Source: Chloroflexota bacterium
GTDB taxonomy: Bacteria; Chloroflexota; Anaerolineae; Anaerolineales; VGOW01
Direction: 5' to 3'
Assembly: GCA_016197225.1 (NCBI GenBank)
Contig: JACPWC010000123.1
Location: 1-46,119 of the forward strand
Length of the DNA stretch: 46,119 nucleotides
The notes below the pieces were generated by a model. The model was given only the letters and a program-made list of their open reading frames with translations. It ran no database searches and was not told the origin of the DNA. This document shows, piece by piece, positions 1-38,563 of this stretch (its first letter is position 1; each line of letters starts with the position of its first letter). Both the position numbers and the translations under genes were made by a program.

Positions 1-13
1 AAGCCACCCGGCG

Positions 14-50
14 GGGCGCAAAGGACATGGACGACTTTGCGCCCTTTTTT
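14..50 (+). terminator. Intrinsic terminator of a gene upstream of the window
   Basis: A perfect 10-bp stem (gggcgcaaag at 14-23 pairing with ctttgcgccc at 35-44) is closed by an 11-nt loop and followed by six T (45-50). This is a classic rho-independent terminator reading rightwards. The gene it ends lies outside the window. Confidence 0.8.
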
Positions 51-141
51 ATTTCGCAATATCATTCCAGGAAAGACCGGGCGCGGGCGACTTGCCTGAA
101 ATGCAACACGCGCCGACTTTATAGAAAAGGAGAACGGGACT

Positions 142-666
142 GTGGTTAACGTGCTGCTGCTCAACGTCAGCAATGAGCCGCTGGCGGTGGTGAGCCTGAA
201 ACGGGCTGTGGGGCTGATGCTGGCCGACAAGGCCGACCTCGTCCGCCCGGTGGATGGCCGGGCGGTGCGCTCGGCCTACAAGCAAATGCCCATGCCGAGC
301 GTCATCCGCTTGCGCTACTATGTGAACGCGCCTCGCCGCAACGTGGCCTGGTCGCGTCTCAATGTGCTCAAGCGCGATCACTACATCTGCCAGTATTGCG
401 GCCACAAACTGCCGACGCACGAAGCGACGATTGACCACGTGATTCCCGTTTCGCAGTGCAAGAAGCTGGAGGTGAATCCCAACACCTGGACGAACACCGT
501 AGCCTGTTGCCGCAAATGCCAGCAACGCAAAGGCAACAAAACCATGCAGACGGTTGGCCTGAAGTTCTACGACTCGAACTTCACCCCCAAACGCCCGCGC
601 GTCAACTACATCGTCTTCACTCTGGGCAACGCGCCCGACGAGTGGAAGAAATACATTCAAGTGTAA
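142..666 (+). CDS. HNH endonuclease family protein
   Basis: This 174-residue protein is a small HNH nuclease of the type common as a stand-alone chromosomal gene. The C-terminal half holds the treble-clef zinc site, with C83-x-x-C86 and C123-x-x-C126 around the catalytic core D98-H99 and N118. The N-terminal 70 residues (LLLNVSNEPLAVVSLKRA) form the beta-rich segment usual in this subfamily. The start is GTG at 142, chosen because an AGGAGA ribosome-binding site lies about 9 nt upstream and no ATG fits. It stands alone between two intrinsic terminators, so it is a single-gene transcript. Its biological substrate is unknown; members can be restriction-like or repair nucleases, and nothing nearby decides between these. 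Confidence 0.88.
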   Translation: MVNVLLLNVSNEPLAVVSLKRAVGLMLADKADLVRPVDGRAVRSAYKQMPMPSVIRLRYYVNAPRRNVAWSRLNVLKRDHYICQYCGHKLPTHEATIDHVIPVSQCKKLEVNPNTWTNTVACCRKCQQRKGNKTMQTVGLKFYDSNFTPKRPRVNYIVFTLGNAPDEWKKYIQV

Positions 667-6754: not shown

Positions 6755-6783
6755 TTGTCGCGTCTCGCGCTTCAATCTATACT
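6755..6783 (+). promoter_or_regulatory. Promoter giving a leaderless transcript
   Basis: TTGTCG at 6755-6760 and TATACT at 6778-6783 are 17 bp apart, an ideal sigma-70-type spacing. The ATG at 6791 is 7 nt after the -10 hexamer, so transcription would start at or next to the A of the start codon, and no Shine-Dalgarno sequence is present. Confidence 0.55.
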
Positions 6784-6790
6784 CACCCTG

Positions 6791-7624
6791 ATGACAGACG
6801 TGGATCGCTCCAACTTTCGCGACGAGGTGCGCGGCCCGAATCCGCCCTCGCTGGCCCGCGCCGCTCTGCTTTTTGCGCGCGAGATCGCCTATCCTGATCT
6901 ACGACCCTCCATTTATCTCGAACAACTTGATGACTGGGCTGACGCTGTTCAACGCCGGTCTGCTCCCGCCGACTCGACCCTCACCCGCCTCAACACCCTC
7001 ACCGGCTTCCTGTTCAACGACGTTGGCTTGCGTGGCAACCGCGACCAGTACACCGACCCGCGCAACAGTTACCTCAACGAGGTGATCTCGCGCGGCCTGG
7101 GCCTGCCCATCTCGCTCTCGGTCATCTTCATTGAAGTTGCCGGGCGTCTCGGCCTGCAAGCTTACGGCATCGGCCTGCCCGGCCACTTCGTCGTCGGCGT
7201 TGGCCTTGAGAGTGAGCTGGTGATGCTAGACCCGTTCAACGGCGGCGTAAAGGTGACTCTGGAAGAGGCGGCTCAACTCGCGCAAACGACCAGCGGCTAC
7301 ACCGGCCCCTTCCAATCCGAATGGCTCAACCCCATGCCGTCGAGCGCCATCCTGGCCCGGATGTTGCTCAACCTGCGCGGTGTTTATATCCAGCGCGAAG
7401 ACTGGCCGGCCACGCTGGCCGTCGTCGGCCACCTGCGCATTCTCCAGCCGCACGCGGCCGAGCACGTGCGCGACGCCGGCCTGCTCCACTTTCGCAACGG
7501 CGAACTGCGCCAGGCCGCCCACCTGCTTGAGCAATATTTGATCCGCGAACCGGACGCGCCGGACAGCGCCGCCATTCGCCAAACGCTCGACGCCATTCTG
7601 AATCAATTTGCGATCTTGAACTGA
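6791..7624 (+). CDS. SirB1/transglutaminase-like family protein with TPR
   Basis: A 277-residue protein of the SirB1 family: a transglutaminase-like fold followed by a short tetratricopeptide tail. Conserved segments are NDVGLRGNRDQYTDPRNSYL, RGLGLPISLSVIFIEVAGRL and GLPGHFVVGV, with the family's DPFNGG. The Cys of true transglutaminases is absent (SLSVIF), as is normal for SirB1 proteins, so enzymatic activity is doubtful. A longer frame begins with TTG at 6755, but that triplet fits better as a -35 element, so ATG 6791 is used. The stop codon is 2 nt before the adenylyl-cyclase-like gene, so the two are probably cotranscribed. The cellular role of the family is not settled. Confidence 0.85.
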   Translation: MTDVDRSNFRDEVRGPNPPSLARAALLFAREIAYPDLRPSIYLEQLDDWADAVQRRSAPADSTLTRLNTLTGFLFNDVGLRGNRDQYTDPRNSYLNEVISRGLGLPISLSVIFIEVAGRLGLQAYGIGLPGHFVVGVGLESELVMLDPFNGGVKVTLEEAAQLAQTTSGYTGPFQSEWLNPMPSSAILARMLLNLRGVYIQREDWPATLAVVGHLRILQPHAAEHVRDAGLLHFRNGELRQAAHLLEQYLIREPDAPDSAAIRQTLDAILNQFAILN

Positions 7625-7626
7625 AC

Positions 7627-10600
7627 ATGGCCCCTTACTGGCTCTCGTTCGTCCCTCACAACTTTGCCGCCGACTTGTTGGCCGACCCCGCCGCCAGCCC
7701 GGTCGGGCGCGAGCAACGCTTTCAGGCCGTCGGCCTGTTCGTGGACATCTCCGGCTTCACGGCCATGAGCGAGGCCCTGAGCAAGATCGGGCGCGACGGT
7801 AGTGAAGAAATGACGACGGCCCTCAACGGCTACTTTGCGCCGATGATCGATCTCATCCAGTCGTACGGCGGCATCGTCGCCAAGTTCGGCGGCGACGCGC
7901 TCACGGTGCTCTTTCCTTTTGACAGCAAGTCGCGCCAGAGCGCCGCTCGCCAGGCCGTGCAGTGCGCGCTCGACATGCAGGCCGCCATGTCGCGCTACGC
8001 CGCCATTCCCACCAGCGCCGGAACCTTCCGGCTGGCCATGAAGGCCGGGCTGGCCTCCGGGCCGGTGTTTTGCGCCACCGTCGGCGACGCTTCGCTCCGG
8101 CTCGAATACGTGGTGGCCGGGCGGGTGCTGGATCGTTGCGCCGAAGCCCAACACTTTGCCGAGCCGGGCGACGTAGTGGCGCATAATGAAGTGCTGGCGT
8201 TGTTGGGTGAAGCCGACTCGGCGCCGACTCGCGACGAAAGTTTTAGCCGGGTGCTCAGGTTGGGCCGCCCCGAACCGGGGAAAGCTCTTCCCCCGCTGGC
8301 GGCGGCTTCACCGGAGTCGGTCCACCAGTTCGCGCCCTATCTTCATCCCGTCATCGCCCAGCGCCTCGAATTGGGCGAAGCCCAGTTTGTCAACGAGCAC
8401 CGCTCGGTCACGGTGCTGTTCATCGGCTTCGACGAATATGATTACGACACCGACCCGCTGGCCGGCATCCGCCTGGAGCGATACTTCGCCCAAGTGGTGC
8501 AGATCATTCACCGCTACGACGGTTCTTTGAACAAAATTGACATGGGCGATAAAGGGAGCAAGTTCATTGCCCTGTTTGGCGCGCCGGTGGCCCACGAAGA
8601 CGATGCCGAGCGCGCCCTGCGTTGCGCCCTCGACCTGATGGCAATCCCCGACGATGCGCCCGCTCTGCGAATTGGCGTTGCCACCGAGTTTGTATATTGC
8701 GGCCTGGTGGGCGGAAGCACCCGCCAGGAATATGCAGTGATGGGCGACGGCGTGAACCTGGCGGCGCGGCTGATGCAAAAAGCGCAACCCGGCCAAATGC
8801 TGGTGAGCGACTCGACCCGCCACGCAACGCCGCGCCACTCACTCACCTTCAAGTGGGAGCCGCTCGGCCCGATTATCGTCAAAGGCAAGGCCCAGCCGGT
8901 GGAAACGTATCAACTGGCCGGGCTGGGCGGCGGAGCCGCGCCGCGCCTGCCCGAGCCGCAATATGCTTTGCCGATGGTGGGCCGCGCCGCTGAGTTGGAC
9001 GTTGCCCAGTCGCGGCTGGCGATGGCCCTGGCCAATCGCGGGCAGATCATCGGCATCACCGCCGAGGCCGGCATGGGCAAGTCGCGGCTGGCGGCCGAGA
9101 TCATCAAAATCGCCTCAGACTACGGCATGTACGGTTACGGCGGCGCGTGCCTCTCTTACGGAACCAAGAGCAACTACCTGGTCTGGCGCGATGTTTTGCG
9201 CGGCCTGTTCGGGCTGGACTCGTCGTGGTCGCTCGATCAACAGACTCACCATCTTGAGTGTGAACTGGCGGCAGTGGATCGCCTGGCTCAAGCCGCGCCT
9301 CTCTTGCCCCGCCTCCCGCTGTTAGGCGTAGCCCTCAACCTCCCCATCCCCGACAACGATCTCACCCATCCCCTCGACGCCCGGACGCGCAAGACCCTGC
9401 TCGAATCGCTCATCGTCGAGTACGCGCGTTATCACACCTCACTCGCGCCTCTGCTGCTGGTGCTCGAAGACTGCCATTGGATCGATCCCCTCTCTTTGGA
9501 TTTGCTGGAAGCGATCAGCCGCCACCTGCAAAACCTGCCGGTTCTGCTGGTGATGCTGTACCGCCCGCCCGAACTGGACGACGGCGGTGGGGCCGCCGTG
9601 TTGACCCGCACCAGCCGGGTGATGAACCTGCCTCACGCTACCGAACTGCGCCTGAACGAGTTTACGCCGGGCGAGGCCGAGCGGCTCATCACTCTCAAGC
9701 TGGCCCAACTGTTCGGCGAAAACAAGGATGTTCCGCCGACCCTGCTCAACAAGATCACCGAACGCGCGCAAGGCAACCCTTTTTATATTGACGAACTCAT
9801 CAACCTGATTCACGATCAGAAGATTGACCCCGGCGACTCCAACGCCCTGAAGGCCCTCGAACTGCCCGACAGCCTGCACAGTTTAATTCTCAGCCGCCTC
9901 GACCAACTCGACGAGGGCGCCAAGACCACGATCAAGGTTGCCAGCGTCATGGGGCGGCTGTTCAAAGCCGACTGGCTGTGGCAGGTGTACCCGGAGCTTG
10001 GCACGCCGGAAGAAGTCCGATCCCACCTCACCCGCCTCAGCCGGCTCGATCTGACTCCGCTCGACAAACCCGATCCCGAACTTGAATATCTCTTCAAGCA
10101 CATCGTCACCCGCGACGTGGCTTACGAGAGTCTCTCAATTGCCACCCGCACCATGTTGCACGAGCAGGTAGGCCGCTTCCTCGAACGGCTCTACACCGGC
10201 GACTTCGGCCTGCCGGAAGTGGTGGCTCACCTCGACCTGCTGGCCTATCACTACGGCCTGAGCAAGAACGTGGACAAACAGCGCGAATACTTCCGCAAGG
10301 CCGGCGAGGCGGCCCAGGCGGCTTATGCCAACGACGCCGCCCTCCATCATTTTCGCGCCCTGCTCCCGCTTCTCAAAGACGGCGAAAAATTTCCGATCCT
10401 GCTCAAACAAGGGCAGGTGTTGGAACTGGTTGGCGAGTGGGTTGAGGCCGAAAGAACTTATCACCAGGCGTTGACGCTCGCAACCGGGCAGGGCGAACTC
10501 AAATCGCAAACGCTCAGCCAACAGGCCATTGGCAATTTGCTGGAACGGCAGGGCGATCACACCAACGCCCTGGACTGGCTCAAACAGGCGCGGGCCGGCT

Positions 10601-11649
10601 TCACCGAATTGAACGACCCGGCCGGCGTGAGCGACGTGCTCGAAGACATTGGCAGCGTGTACTGGCAACAGGGCGATTACGAAGCCGCCCGCGCCCTGAC
10701 TACCGAAAGCCTCAACCTCTGCCGCACCCTCGGCGACAAAAAGTGCATCGCTCATGCCCTGCAAAATCTTGGCAACGTAGCTTTTGATCAAGATGATTAC
10801 GATGCGGCGCAAGAGTTGTATCAGGAAAGCCTGGAACTGTGGCGCGAGCTGGGCAACCGCCTCGGCGCGGCCAACCTCCTCTCCAACCTGGGGCTGGTGG
10901 CCCGCAATCATGGCAGCTACGAAACGGCCCGCGAGCTTTTTGAAGAGAGCCTCAACATGCGCCGCGAACTGGGCGACCGCTGGGGCATCGCCGACTCGCT
11001 CAACTGTTTGGGAGACGTTGCCAAGAACCTCGGCGCGCTCGACCGGGCGCAGATTCTGCACGAGGAAAGCTGGCGGCTCTTTCAGGAGATGGGCGACAAG
11101 GGCCGCATTGCCGGCGCGCTCGACGACCTGGGCGTGGTGGCCTACCTTCAACACGACGACGACAAAGCCCGCGCCTTCTTTGAGGAAAGCGTCGCCATGT
11201 TCCGCGAACTGCAAGAGAAGCCGGATGTTGCCAACTCGCTCAACAACTTAGGGTTAGCCGTCGCCAAGCTGGGCAACCCGGCTCGCGCCGCCGACCTCTT
11301 TCGCGAAAGTTTGACGTTGTGCCACGAGTTGGGCGACAAATTGGGCGTGGCCGAAAACCTGGCCGGACTCGCCGGGGTGGCCGCCACCGGCAAAGACCTG
11401 TTAGGTCTTGGAGACCTAACAGGTCTTAAAAGTGCCGCCCGCCTGGCCGGCGCCGTCCACGCCTTGCTCGATCAGATCAACGCCGTGCTCGGCCCCGCTG
11501 ACCGGGCCGACTACGAGCAATTACTGGCCGACTTGCGCGAGAAGTTGGGCGAGGAGGTGTTTAATAAGGAATGGAATGAGGGGTTGAAAATGGGGCCGGA
11601 TGAAACGGTGGCGCACGCACTGGCCGGGCATCGCGAGCCAGACGCTTAG
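7627..11649 (+). CDS. Soluble-adenylyl-cyclase-like protein: two cyclase domains, ATPase, TPR
   Basis: A 1340-residue protein with the order C1 cyclase (about 30-200), C2 cyclase (about 255-430), STAND-type ATPase (Walker A AEAGMGKS at 479-486, Walker B-like LLLVLEDCHWID near 609) and about ten TPR units (about 950-1250). C1 has both metal Asp residues (D40 in VDISGF, D90 in KFGGDA) and K86, but lacks the transition-state Asn/Arg. C2 lacks the first metal Asp (FIGFDEY) yet has N377 and R381 in MGDGVNLAARL. One composite active site per chain, as in animal soluble adenylyl cyclase (ADCY10), is expected, making cAMP. There is no membrane segment. It follows the SirB1-like gene by 2 nt and overlaps the convergent glycosyltransferase gene by 4 bp. 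A palindromic element is inserted in frame at residues 1256-1268. Confidence 0.9.
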   Translation: MAPYWLSFVPHNFAADLLADPAASPVGREQRFQAVGLFVDISGFTAMSEALSKIGRDGSEEMTTALNGYFAPMIDLIQSYGGIVAKFGGDALTVLFPFDSKSRQSAARQAVQCALDMQAAMSRYAAIPTSAGTFRLAMKAGLASGPVFCATVGDASLRLEYVVAGRVLDRCAEAQHFAEPGDVVAHNEVLALLGEADSAPTRDESFSRVLRLGRPEPGKALPPLAAASPESVHQFAPYLHPVIAQRLELGEAQFVNEHRSVTVLFIGFDEYDYDTDPLAGIRLERYFAQVVQIIHRYDGSLNKIDMGDKGSKFIALFGAPVAHEDDAERALRCALDLMAIPDDAPALRIGVATEFVYCGLVGGSTRQEYAVMGDGVNLAARLMQKAQPGQMLVSDSTRHATPRHSLTFKWEPLGPIIVKGKAQPVETYQLAGLGGGAAPRLPEPQYALPMVGRAAELDVAQSRLAMALANRGQIIGITAEAGMGKSRLAAEIIKIASDYGMYGYGGACLSYGTKSNYLVWRDVLRGLFGLDSSWSLDQQTHHLECELAAVDRLAQAAPLLPRLPLLGVALNLPIPDNDLTHPLDARTRKTLLESLIVEYARYHTSLAPLLLVLEDCHWIDPLSLDLLEAISRHLQNLPVLLVMLYRPPELDDGGGAAVLTRTSRVMNLPHATELRLNEFTPGEAERLITLKLAQLFGENKDVPPTLLNKITERAQGNPFYIDELINLIHDQKIDPGDSNALKALELPDSLHSLILSRLDQLDEGAKTTIKVASVMGRLFKADWLWQVYPELGTPEEVRSHLTRLSRLDLTPLDKPDPELEYLFKHIVTRDVAYESLSIATRTMLHEQVGRFLERLYTGDFGLPEVVAHLDLLAYHYGLSKNVDKQREYFRKAGEAAQAAYANDAALHHFRALLPLLKDGEKFPILLKQGQVLELVGEWVEAERTYHQALTLATGQGELKSQTLSQQAIGNLLERQGDHTNALDWLKQARAGFTELNDPAGVSDVLEDIGSVYWQQGDYEAARALTTESLNLCRTLGDKKCIAHALQNLGNVAFDQDDYDAAQELYQESLELWRELGNRLGAANLLSNLGLVARNHGSYETARELFEESLNMRRELGDRWGIADSLNCLGDVAKNLGALDRAQILHEESWRLFQEMGDKGRIAGALDDLGVVAYLQHDDDKARAFFEESVAMFRELQEKPDVANSLNNLGLAVAKLGNPARAADLFRESLTLCHELGDKLGVAENLAGLAGVAATGKDLLGLGDLTGLKSAARLAGAVHALLDQINAVLGPADRADYEQLLADLREKLGEEVFNKEWNEGLKMGPDETVAHALAGHREPDA
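11394..11426. repeat. 15-3-15 palindromic element, copy 1 (inside cyclase gene)
   Basis: Two perfect 15-bp inverted arms (agacctgttaggtct at 11394-11408, agacctaacaggtct at 11412-11426) are separated by 3 bp. Each arm is itself nearly palindromic (agacct/aggtct). It lies in frame in the cyclase gene and encodes KDLLGLGDLTGLK after the last TPR unit. Copies with the same 15-3-15 layout are at 22712 and 39939. Confidence 0.9.
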
Positions 11650-12810: not shown

Positions 12811-14118
12811 ATGGCTATGACAAAAAAACGTAAAACACCCTGGGCCTTCGCCATTCTCCTAATCTTGCAGTCGTGCAACACTGCCTCTAAAGCCACGCCC
12901 GCTCAACTTGCGCCGACGGAGGCCCTTGCCTCAACACTGCCGCTCGCAGCCACCGGCTCGTCCAACTCTATTCTGCCTGTTGACACTCTTGCCCCCAGCC
13001 CGCCACCCGCAACTGCCGGCTCATCCAATTCCATCCTGCCCACCAACGCGCCGACTCTGCTATCAACGCCCACTGCTAAATCAGCTTCAACCTCGGCGCC
13101 GCCGCCAACCGCCAGGCCGGCTCTTGCCAATAGCCCAACCGCCGGGTTTGCCGCCACCCAACCAACCCCTACCGCGCAACCTGCCGCCGCGAATACCCCG
13201 ACCGCCACCGCGCGTCCTGCTAACGCAGGCGGCCCGACTCTCGCCGGTTGCCCCGTCTTCCCCGCCAACAATATCTGGAACACCCGCGTGGACTCGCTCC
13301 CCGTTCACCCGCTCTCGGACGCTTACGTCAACAGCATCGGCCCTGACGTTGGCCTGCACCCCGACTTCGGCTCTGGCTTGTGGGATGGCGGGCCGATCGG
13401 CATTCCGTTCATCACTGTGCCGGGCAACCAACTGCCGGTCAACGTCACGTTTGACTATGACGACGAAAGCGACGCCGGGCCGTATCCCGTTCCGCCCGAC
13501 GCGCCCATTGAAGGCGGCCCGGCCAGCGACGGCGACCGCCACATCCTCGTTGTAGATCGCGACCACTGCAAGCTCTACGAACTTTACGCCGCTTATCCCG
13601 AAGATGACGAAAATTGGATCGCCGGGTCGGGCGCGATCTACGACCTAAACTCAAACAGCCTCCGCCCTGCCACCTGGACTTCAGCCGACGCCGCCGGTCT
13701 GCCGATCCTGCCCGGCCTGGTGCGTTACGACGAAGTGGCCGCCGGCGAGATCAAGCACGCCATCCGTTTCACCGCCGAGGAGACACAGCGCCTCTTCGTC
13801 TGGCCCGCCCGCCACTTTGCCTCCGACGTCACCAACTCCAAAGCGCCGCCGATGGGCCAACGGTTCCGGCTCAAGGCCTCGTTCGACATCTCATCTTACC
13901 CGCGTGACGCGCAAGTCATCCTCGTGGCCATGAAAACCTACGGCCTCATCCTGGCCGACAACGGCAGCAGTTGGTTCATCAGCGGCGCGCCCGACGAACG
14001 CTGGGACAATGACGTGCTGGTGTCAACATTGGGCGAGATCACCGGCTCGAACTTTGAGGCGGTGGACACGTCAAGCCTGATGATCAGCCCGGACTCTGGC
14101 GAGGCCCGGCAACCCTGA
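12811..14118 (+). CDS. Secreted lipoprotein with Thr/Pro-rich linker and unknown conserved domain
   Basis: A 435-residue protein with a basic N-terminus, hydrophobic helix and a lipobox (ILQSC, lipidated C22). Residues 25-140 form a low-complexity Ala/Thr/Pro/Ser linker in which GSSNSILP occurs twice (duplicated DNA). The rest (about 145-430) is a globular domain beginning CPVFPANNIWNTRVDSLPV, with many Asp-rich turns (TFDYDDESDAGPYPVP, DRDHCKLYELYAAYP) and MKTYGLILADNGSSWFISG. I recognise the pattern from unnamed secreted proteins but cannot give a function. The ATG at 12811 is preferred; a second ATG follows at 12817. The upstream intergenic 12660-12810 holds a 12-bp palindrome and no gene. 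Confidence 0.8.
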   Translation: MAMTKKRKTPWAFAILLILQSCNTASKATPAQLAPTEALASTLPLAATGSSNSILPVDTLAPSPPPATAGSSNSILPTNAPTLLSTPTAKSASTSAPPPTARPALANSPTAGFAATQPTPTAQPAAANTPTATARPANAGGPTLAGCPVFPANNIWNTRVDSLPVHPLSDAYVNSIGPDVGLHPDFGSGLWDGGPIGIPFITVPGNQLPVNVTFDYDDESDAGPYPVPPDAPIEGGPASDGDRHILVVDRDHCKLYELYAAYPEDDENWIAGSGAIYDLNSNSLRPATWTSADAAGLPILPGLVRYDEVAAGEIKHAIRFTAEETQRLFVWPARHFASDVTNSKAPPMGQRFRLKASFDISSYPRDAQVILVAMKTYGLILADNGSSWFISGAPDERWDNDVLVSTLGEITGSNFEAVDTSSLMISPDSGEARQP

Positions 14119-35797: not shown

Positions 35798-38563
35798 ATG
35801 GTTACGCGCTTTTCATTCATCTATCGCTCATCGTTCATCGTCCTCCTCGCCCTCCTCAGCGGCGCATTCCTGCGATTCCACGAGCTGGGCCGTGTGCCGC
35901 CCGGCCTGCACTACGACTTTGCCGCCAACGCTATCATTGCGGACGGCGTCGCTTTCGATGGCTGGCGTGAGGTCTTCATCACCGCCTACACTGGCAAAGA
36001 AGTGCTGTTCTTTTACACTGCCGGGCTGATCTTCAAGTTCGTCGGCTCGTCCATCTTTGCCCTGCAATTCACCGCCGCCGTCTATGGCGTGCTGGGCATC
36101 GCAACCTGCTACTTCGCCGCCCGCCAACTGTTGTGGGAAGACCCCGACTCAAAATGGATCGCCGCCCTCGCCGCCGCCATTCTCTCCTTTACCTTCATGC
36201 ACCTCGTCTGGTCGCGCTACGGCGAGCGCGCCGTCACCGAACCGTTTGTGCAAGGTCTGGCCGTCGGCTTTCTTTTCCGCGCTCTACGGTTTGGCGCTCC
36301 CGCATCCTTTCACCTTGTCATCCTGTCACCCCGCCAACGAATCGGATTGATGACAAACACGATTCTCGCCGGAGTCTTCACCGGGCTGGCCGCCTACACC
36401 TATCTCGCCGCCCGCCTCTTCCCGATCCCGATCGCTGTCACTCTCTTCTCTCTTCTCATCTATGAATTCCGCCACCTCAACCGCCTGAAAGCTCGTCTCG
36501 GTCAGTTCGCCATTTACTTCGCCGCCGCCGCCCTCGTCTTCGCTCCCCTCGGCTGGTTCTTCGTCACTCATCCCGAAACCTTCCTCGTTCGCGCCAATCA
36601 GCTTACGCCCAAGACCGGCGAGGGCAACTTGTTGCTTCAAGGTATCACCGGCGCGTTGGGCATGATCTTCCTCTCTGGCGAACTCTACGACCGCTTCAAC
36701 ATTCCGGGCCGCCCCATCTTCGGCCCTGTCCTCGGCTTCTTCTTTGTCCTCGGCTTCGTCCTCACCGTCATCAAATTCTTTCGACCTTCTACAGAACACG
36801 CAATACGCAATACGCAATATCCACGTTTGACGTTGGCACAGCCCCCTGCGGGTCACGCTTCACTCTTCCTCCTCGTCTACCTCTTCACCTTCCTCATTCC
36901 CACCGCCATCTCCATTCACGACATCTTCCCCTCCAACGTGCGCTCGATGGGGCTGTTGCCGGTGCTGACCATCTTTCCGGCGCTTGGGATTGTAAAGGCG
37001 AGTAATTGGTTAGTGGTTATTAGTTATTGGCGTTCAAAAACTCGCCCAATAACCAATAACTACGCGAAGCGGCTAATAACCGCTTTCACGCTTACCTTCG
37101 GCACCCTCACCACCTACTACTCCTACTTCAATCTCTGGGCCGCCGCCCCGGGCCTTCATTACGCCAACGACACCGACCTCGTCAACGCCGCCCGCTGGAT
37201 CAACACCCAGAACACACAAAACACCAGTGTCTATTTCTCCGCTATTCACTATCGTCATCCAACAGTTGCTTACCTCGCCCGCGACTTCCCTTCGTTCCGC
37301 TGGTTCATTGGCGGCCAGGCGCTCGCCATTCCTGAAGGCTCGGCCATTTATGTTTTCCCGCACTCAGCCCCGCCGCCCGAAGATTGGATCGCACAGTGGT
37401 CTCCAATTGACGCGCCGCTCGGCCCCGACGGCACGCCCGACTTCCGCGCTTATTATTTCGACTCGATGCCGCCCCTGCCCGATTTCATTTCGGCCTCGGC
37501 CAACTTTGGCAACCTCGTCGAGCTAACCGGTTATCGCCTCGTCGCGCCGGGCGTCGTGGACTTTCGCCTCCACGTCCTCAACCTGCCCGACCAGCCCGAC
37601 TACCGCCTCGTGGCCGACTTGGTGGATGTGGCCGGCTATCACTGGGCGCAAGGCTTCAACGACTCCTATTTTGCCGAGCAGTGGCAAGCCGGTGAAACCA
37701 TTTTGATGCGAGTCAAAATTCCGATTGAGATCGGCACCCCGCCCGGCAATTACCAATTACTAATAACAATTTACTCCGCCACTTCCAAAGTCAACCTCCC
37801 CACCGGTTCAGCCGCCTATGCAACCCTCGGCCCGATCTCACTCCCGCCCACCGGCCCGCAACCCCTCGCCGACCCGCTCGCCGTCATCAGCGGCCTCAAC
37901 CTGATTCAACTCGACCCGCCGCCCGCCCACGCCCGCCCCGGCGAACCATTGCCGTTTACCACTCACTGGCAGGCCTCATCTCCAATAACCAATAACCAAT
38001 TACTAATTACTAAGCTAAACGGCGTTGAGCTTGAGTCGGCTTCCCCGGCGCACAACACCCACCCCACCAGCCAATGGCGGCCCGGCGAGATCGTTATTGA
38101 TCGCCACGCCCCCCGACTCCCGCGCGACCTTCCGCCCGGCGTTTACAATGTCACCCTCAACGACTTTCTTATCGGCACAGTCAGCGTCGAAGCCATTGAG
38201 CGCCAGTTCAACCGGCCCACGCCGTTAGTTTCCATCACCGCCGGCTTTGGCGATCAATTCGAGCTTGTGGGCTACGACCTGACCGACTCGGCCATCACGT
38301 TATACTGGCAGGCTCTCAAGGAAACCGAAGTTGATTACACCGGGTTTGTTCACGTGCTCGACGCTAGCGGCCAGATCGTCGCCCAGCGCGACGCGCAACC
38401 GCAAAGCGGCGGCTACTCCACCTCGTTGTGGGTTGCGGGCGAGTACGTGGCTGATAGAATCGAGATACCAACAACGGGCGCTTCAATTGAAATTGGCTGG
38501 TACGTGGCCGAGACCGGGGAGCGGCTGAAGACTGACAAAGGCGACTCGTTGCGCTTGCCATGA
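35798..38563 (+). CDS. Large GT39-type membrane glycosyltransferase with repeat insertions
   Basis: A 921-residue protein. The N-terminal half is a GT-C domain with the acidic/aromatic start LGRVPPGLHYDFAANAIIADG and about a dozen helices to residue 450. The C-terminal half (about 470-921) is extracytoplasmic and beta-rich, ending with the same domain as the 28392 enzyme (YTGFVHVLDASGQIVAQRDAQP). Four short-repeat arrays are translated in it, near residues 333-341 (HAIRNTQY), 402-428 (NWLVVISYW, ITNNYAKRLIT), 650-659 (NYQLLITIY) and 729-740 (ITNNQLLITK). The frame stays open through all. Donor and acceptor sugars are unknown; its neighbour murJ and the beta-helix protein suggest an envelope role. 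Confidence 0.85.
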   Translation: MVTRFSFIYRSSFIVLLALLSGAFLRFHELGRVPPGLHYDFAANAIIADGVAFDGWREVFITAYTGKEVLFFYTAGLIFKFVGSSIFALQFTAAVYGVLGIATCYFAARQLLWEDPDSKWIAALAAAILSFTFMHLVWSRYGERAVTEPFVQGLAVGFLFRALRFGAPASFHLVILSPRQRIGLMTNTILAGVFTGLAAYTYLAARLFPIPIAVTLFSLLIYEFRHLNRLKARLGQFAIYFAAAALVFAPLGWFFVTHPETFLVRANQLTPKTGEGNLLLQGITGALGMIFLSGELYDRFNIPGRPIFGPVLGFFFVLGFVLTVIKFFRPSTEHAIRNTQYPRLTLAQPPAGHASLFLLVYLFTFLIPTAISIHDIFPSNVRSMGLLPVLTIFPALGIVKASNWLVVISYWRSKTRPITNNYAKRLITAFTLTFGTLTTYYSYFNLWAAAPGLHYANDTDLVNAARWINTQNTQNTSVYFSAIHYRHPTVAYLARDFPSFRWFIGGQALAIPEGSAIYVFPHSAPPPEDWIAQWSPIDAPLGPDGTPDFRAYYFDSMPPLPDFISASANFGNLVELTGYRLVAPGVVDFRLHVLNLPDQPDYRLVADLVDVAGYHWAQGFNDSYFAEQWQAGETILMRVKIPIEIGTPPGNYQLLITIYSATSKVNLPTGSAAYATLGPISLPPTGPQPLADPLAVISGLNLIQLDPPPAHARPGEPLPFTTHWQASSPITNNQLLITKLNGVELESASPAHNTHPTSQWRPGEIVIDRHAPRLPRDLPPGVYNVTLNDFLIGTVSVEAIERQFNRPTPLVSITAGFGDQFELVGYDLTDSAITLYWQALKETEVDYTGFVHVLDASGQIVAQRDAQPQSGGYSTSLWVAGEYVADRIEIPTTGASIEIGWYVAETGERLKTDKGDSLRLP
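36796..36820. repeat. 7-bp repeat array inside large GT-C gene, site 1
   Basis: ACACGCA, ATACGCA, ATACGCA then AT, a 7-bp period, encodes HAIRNTQY in the loop after FFRPSTE. It is followed by ccacgtttgacgttgg, two further heptamers resembling the pyrD array. Confidence 0.75.
37002..37082. repeat. Inverted pair of 7-bp arrays inside large GT-C gene, site 2
   Basis: Left array GTAATTG, GTTAGTG, GTTATTA, GTTATTG (37002-37029); right array CCAATAA, CCAATAA, C...CTAATAACC (37046-37082), with tacgcgaagcgg between units. The inner arms pair at 14 of 15 positions around a 15-nt loop, making a stable hairpin. Coding frame: NWLVVISYWRSKTRPITNNY. Confidence 0.85.
37747..37774. repeat. 7-bp repeat array inside large GT-C gene, site 3
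   Basis: Four units CAATTAC, CAATTAC, TAATAAC, AATTTAC encode NYQLLITIY, in the beta-rich C-terminal half of the protein. Confidence 0.75.
37982..38016. repeat. 7-bp repeat array inside large GT-C gene, site 4
   Basis: Five units CCAATAA, CCAATAA, CCAATTA, CTAATTA, CTAAGCT encode PITNNQLLITKL. The DNA and peptide (ITNNQLLIT) match the array at 29667-29722 in another glycosyltransferase, read there from the opposite DNA strand. Confidence 0.85.

Follow-up and report, generated by a model that had tools for sequence, protein, structure and literature searches.

A gene of a Chloroflexota bacterium encodes what we consider, with a probability of about 0.8, to be a bacterial member of the soluble adenylyl cyclase (sAC, ADCY10-like) family, that is, a protein in which two cyclase domains, C1 and C2, would form one cAMP-producing site, gated by a STAND ATPase and TPR repeats and lacking the bicarbonate switch of the mammalian enzyme. 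Sequence, phylogeny, predicted fold and a residue survey are the computed basis of this reading, from which we infer enzymatic activity, cAMP as the product, STAND gating and lack of a bicarbonate switch. The gene lies in a window (the whole stretch of DNA analysed) of 46,119 nucleotides, and its product is laid out as follows:

7627..11649, + strand: sAC-like adenylyl cyclase, 1340 aa (ORF translation)
7708..8226, + strand: C1 cyclase domain, about aa 28-200, metal-binding half; best PDB match human C1, E 2.5e-21
8341..8928, + strand: C2 cyclase domain, about aa 239-434, transition-state half; best PDB match human C2, E 1.5e-22
8974..9552, + strand: AAA_16/STAND-type nucleotide-binding domain, aa 450-642
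9874..10092, + strand: predicted helices and short strands, about aa 750-822 (predicted secondary structure)
10219..11385, + strand: TPR superhelix, about aa 865-1253 (Pfam, model)

The preliminary description had proposed the order C1-C2-ATPase-TPR, and Pfam indeed recovers two Guanylate_cyc stretches, AAA_16 at aa 450-642 and, after it, a long series of TPRs. Walker A (AEAGMGKS, aa 479-486) and Walker B (LLVLED, aa 610-615) are both present, and the region around aa 750-822 may represent the winged-helix part of the STAND module. Against NCBIfam, the protein gave only matches below the cut-off, for example TOMM_kin_cyc with 231 of 706 bits. Antisense to the TPR region runs an open frame of 359 aa (10135-11214, - strand), which is most likely a mere by-product of the repeat sequence.

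The likeness to human sAC is apparent in both sequence and fold. The best PDB match of the whole protein is human ADCY10, covering both domains (E 6e-38), and each domain on its own finds the human enzyme well ahead of the next entry, Cya2 2w01 (E 1.5e-14 for C1 and 2.8e-11 for C2). An AF2 model of C1-C2 (aa 1-441, 59 sequences) reached a pLDDT of 94.6 and a pTM of 0.93, and Foldseek against the PDB ranked human sAC first. Superposition on 4clk by VIA-align gave Z 42.7 and 2.3 A over 416 residues, with residues 1..434 of the model covering 11..466 of the human structure, including the N-terminal leader and the linker; by the same measure, membrane AC9 scored Z 37.1 and single-domain cyclases about 22. 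Structure prediction, one of the checks initially suggested, thus returned one C1-C2 pair matching that of human sAC.

We then considered the active site. The residues concerned are:

7744..7746, + strand: D40 (human D47), metal Asp; kept in 121/121 relatives with a residue there
7894..7896, + strand: D90 (human D99), metal Asp; 121/122 relatives
8533..8535, + strand: K303 (human K334, adenine recognition), inside LNKIDMGDKG
8755..8769, + strand: N377 and R381 (human N412 and R416); N in 121/122 and R in 115/122 relatives

The alignment that pairs these residues also equates human K95, K144, V167, K334 and M337 with K86, K139, V163, K303 and M306; the roles of V167, M337 and T405 are taken as background. 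The remaining roles in human sAC, among them D47 and D99 as metal Asp, K95 and R176 in bicarbonate binding, K334 in adenine recognition and N412 and R416 in the transition state, follow PMC12867704. A split active site had been claimed from the sequence, and both the alignment and a cross-table of residues place D40 and D90 only in C1 and N377 and R381 only in C2. At the positions of D47, D99, N412 and R416, C1 reads D, D, D, E and C2 reads G, S, N, R, so that Asp and Glu occupy the Asn/Arg positions of C1, and Gly and Ser the metal-Asp positions of C2; the human domains read D, D, D, L and N, C, N, R. Neither domain therefore combines both Asp with Asn and Arg as in homodimeric class III cyclases; in single-domain cyclases the Asp pair and the Arg occur within one domain in 21/21 cases and the Asn in 19/21. 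The same division runs through the bacterial family: C1 domains have the Asp pair in 35/35 cases, with mostly Asp/Glu or Glu/Ala at the N/R positions, and C2 domains have N and R in 35/35 and almost never a metal Asp. Because the complete split set is kept in 114 of 122 non-redundant bacterial two-domain relatives, chance does not explain the split, and with strongly supported domain clades we also rejected convergence.

These clades emerge from a tree of 94 cyclase domains, in which the C1 domains, human C1 included, lie on one side of a branch with support 100/100, the C2 domains, human C2 included, form a separate clade (100/95), and homodimeric and single-cyclase-STAND proteins fall outside both. 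Phylogeny had been named as a further check, and both domains do group with their human counterparts, away from homodimeric cyclases. An independent duplication in animals, modelled by holding human C1 and C2 together, was rejected (AU p 0.003). The placement of the human domains and this rejection together imply that the split is older than the separation of bacterial and animal sACs. In a concatenated tree, human sAC joins a second bacterial subfamily (B) with support 98/98 and not the subfamily of the 1340-aa protein; the human branch is long and alternative placements survive AU tests (p 0.15 and 0.43), so that B is a tentative choice as the closest bacterial relative of animal sAC. Two further proteins of the same genome (L082, G000:C72, and L084, G000:C56) have a single cyclase domain followed by ATPase and TPR; in the tree both branch off on the side of C2 without belonging to its clade, and they may represent the form from before C1 was added.

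The bicarbonate site of the mammalian enzyme corresponds to these positions:

7882..7884, + strand: K86 (human K95, bicarbonate-binding Lys)
8134..8136, + strand: R170, Arg two residues before A172; among 21 subfamily members R 10, Q 6, L 2, D 1, K 1, Y 1
8140..8142, + strand: A172, position of human R176; Arg in 0/122 relatives
8734..8736, + strand: A370, position of human T405; Thr in 20/21 subfamily members, the exception being the 1340-aa protein

Of the two basic residues of the mammalian switch, the protein thus has the Lys and lacks the Arg, and alignment to human sAC upholds the initial observation that R176 is replaced with Ala172, preceded by an Arg two residues earlier. Among 122 non-redundant bacterial two-domain sACs, the R176 position holds no Arg at all; instead we found Ala (64), Gly (19), Ser (17), Cys (10), His (2) and others, with no gaps around the position in the aligned sequences inspected, and Lys at the K95 position in 66/122. 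A genus in the family of Ca. Oscillochloris fontis, probably Chloroflexus, has five two-domain types, with K/A, K/A, K/G, T/A and H/S at K95/R176. One subfamily of the probable Chloroflexus genus (L173-L179) shows a neutral residue and Ala at these positions (T/A, in one case N/A) and retains an Arg at the R416 equivalent of C1, the residue that directly follows the R176 position. The literature searched, with subscription papers mostly outside it, holds no earlier report of such a survey of the R176 residue in bacterial sACs.

Could the protein nevertheless be activated by bicarbonate as in mammals, with K86 and a second basic residue, for example Arg170, holding the anion? K86 and M306 are kept, and one Chloroflexus sAC was reported to be stimulated by bicarbonate (Kobayashi 2004, according to the citing passage of PMC11006738), an effect that would then be independent of R176, unless it arises via pH. 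Ala172 in place of R176 and Ala370 in place of the marker threonine speak against it. We judged Arg170 an unlikely stand-in for R176 because it varies within the subfamily, half of whose members have Q, L, D, K or Y instead, and, located two residues off on the helix, it should point elsewhere. We take human T405 to be the threonine that an earlier paper singled out. That paper (PMC3383692) reported that a threonine was thought to predict the bicarbonate response; Thr at this position, expected of class IIIb, is Ala370 in our protein. Moreover, sea urchin sAC, which lacks R176, and salmon sAC, which lacks K95, are pH-regulated and do not respond to bicarbonate (PMC12867704, 2026; a paper that makes no mention of bacteria or prokaryotes), and part of the earlier bicarbonate effects on mammalian sAC at high ATP was due to pH (PMC12250328). 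Taken together, we regard mammalian-like activation as unlikely. Since the Arg is absent here and in 122/122 bacterial relatives, the R176-D99 switch is probably not the control.

The remaining alternatives concern what the cyclase pair does. It might be enzymatically dead and serve the STAND module as a regulatory platform that binds nucleotides, given that degenerate relatives exist and that A370 is unusual; however, the four catalytic residues as well as K139 and K303 are intact and clearly conserved, which makes this very improbable. One such relative, a two-domain sAC (L110, G426:C66:2846-4132:-), carries Asp99 to Glu, N412 to Ser and R416 to Asp and is probably catalytically dead. A main product other than cAMP, that is, cGMP or another cyclic nucleotide, is a very doubtful proposition as well. 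Ala370 replaces Thr405 at a base-recognition position, and because this Ala, found in 1/21 subfamily members, sits beside the adenine Lys, the preference for ATP is uncertain; guanylyl cyclases are expected to carry Glu at the adenine-Lys position (the Lys/Glu rule), but Lys (K303) and not Glu is present in 21/21 subfamily members. It is extremely improbable that the two domains fail to pair within the chain and act instead in a conventional homodimer or each with another cyclase: the 19 Guanylate_cyc domain matches in the 4.8 Mb draft genome would offer partners, but neither domain has more than half of the catalytic set by itself, and the very confident single-chain model matches the intramolecular human pair.

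The C-terminal half was modelled separately (aa 428-1340, 30 sequences; pLDDT 89.1). Foldseek ranked the STAND-TPR protein 6mfv first for this model (E 4.6e-16) and Apaf-1 and MalT lower; the VIA-align list is dominated by TPR repeats, while the matches to 6mfv, MalT 8bob and Apaf-1 extend across the ATPase region. The half thus has the arrangement of a STAND ATPase with a TPR sensor, in which a Walker A/B ATPase is followed by a helical part and then a TPR superhelix. Directly upstream of the cyclase lies this gene:

6755..7624, + strand: Transglut_core2-TPR (SirB1-like) gene; its end is 2 nt upstream of the cyclase ATG

Co-translation of the two genes is possible. A conserved operon was considered, and no homologue of the SirB1-like gene was found beside the relatives fetched, most of which came with short flanks only. 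Elsewhere in the window, two long frames gave no Pfam match (12811-14118, + strand, 435 aa; 35798-38563, + strand, 921 aa).

Based on these results, we propose a working model in which C1 and C2 would fold as a pseudo-heterodimer with a single active site converting ATP to cAMP, C1 supplying the two metal Asp and C2 the adenine Lys and the transition-state Asn and Arg. The second, degenerate site would be the counterpart of the bicarbonate pocket of human sAC. The STAND ATPase switch and the TPR sensor would most likely control the cyclase upon binding of a ligand or partner, and control by pH or by STAND/TPR input appears likelier than an R176-D99 bicarbonate switch. Possible cAMP receptors are at hand, with 17 cNMP-binding domain matches in the genome.

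Proteins of this kind are widespread. Of 400 genomes of the phylum, 132 contain a match with E no higher than 1e-20, single-domain proteins possibly among them. A subfamily B profile, applied with a more stringent cut-off that still lets in some other proteins such as the 1340-aa one, matched 35/400. Close relatives occur in Anaerolineales, Anaerolineae and Chloroflexales genomes, and further members in Acidobacteriota, Aminicenantes and Delongbacteria records. Of the 121 two-domain proteins whose sequence is long enough to tell, 120 have a Walker A after C2, so that the architecture with ATPase is kept. The genome of the 1340-aa protein also encodes a paralogue (L083, G000:C66:52210-53418:+) with two cyclase domains and no Walker A after C2, and with only 180 aa left in frame.

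The protein is ordinary for its phylum, where relatives are common, and the novelty that the preliminary description implied does not stand: the kind was already known, because Kobayashi, Buck and Levin had reported sAC-like Chloroflexus cyclases with a pair of catalytic domains in 2004 (Dev Genes Evol 214:503, as the citing passage of PMC11006738 has it). What we add is the family-wide absence of R176 from the bacterial two-domain sACs surveyed. We see it as an even bet that bacterial two-domain sACs never had the R176 switch, that the ancestor shared with animals was of the K/neutral type and controlled by pH and/or STAND-TPR, and that R176-based sensing was gained within animals. If so, pH or some other mechanism lies behind the bicarbonate effect reported for Chloroflexus. 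It has been said that sAC senses bicarbonate in organisms from bacteria to man and is conserved in this role, a claim that is now directly testable because a large bacterial family keeps the split site and never the bicarbonate Arg. Bacterial sACs would also provide soluble models of the full-length enzyme, including the C-terminal half, which is difficult to investigate in mammals and for which our data suggest STAND/TPR control.

Compared with known systems, the protein shares with human ADCY10 the C1-C2 pseudo-heterodimer, the identical catalytic split and the equivalents of Lys95 and Lys334, and differs from it by Ala172 for R176, Ala370 for T405 and Gly307 for F338; the identity is 26%, and the likeness is established over the C1-C2 halves. 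Sea urchin sAC likewise keeps K95 and has a neutral residue at 176, a pH-regulated, bicarbonate-insensitive genotype, although that residue is Asn and not Ala. The sAC-like cyclases of Chloroflexus aurantiacus belong to the same phylum, have two catalytic domains and reportedly possess a long C-terminal extension. A Chloroflexus enzyme is the one reported as bicarbonate-stimulated, whereas ours is known from its sequence, with K/A at K95/R176 and Ala for T405. Finally, the C-terminal half resembles 6mfv, MalT and Apaf-1 in its ATPase and helical part, and the first two also in the TPR superhelix; unlike in these proteins, the output is the N-terminal cyclase pair rather than DNA binding or a caspase platform.
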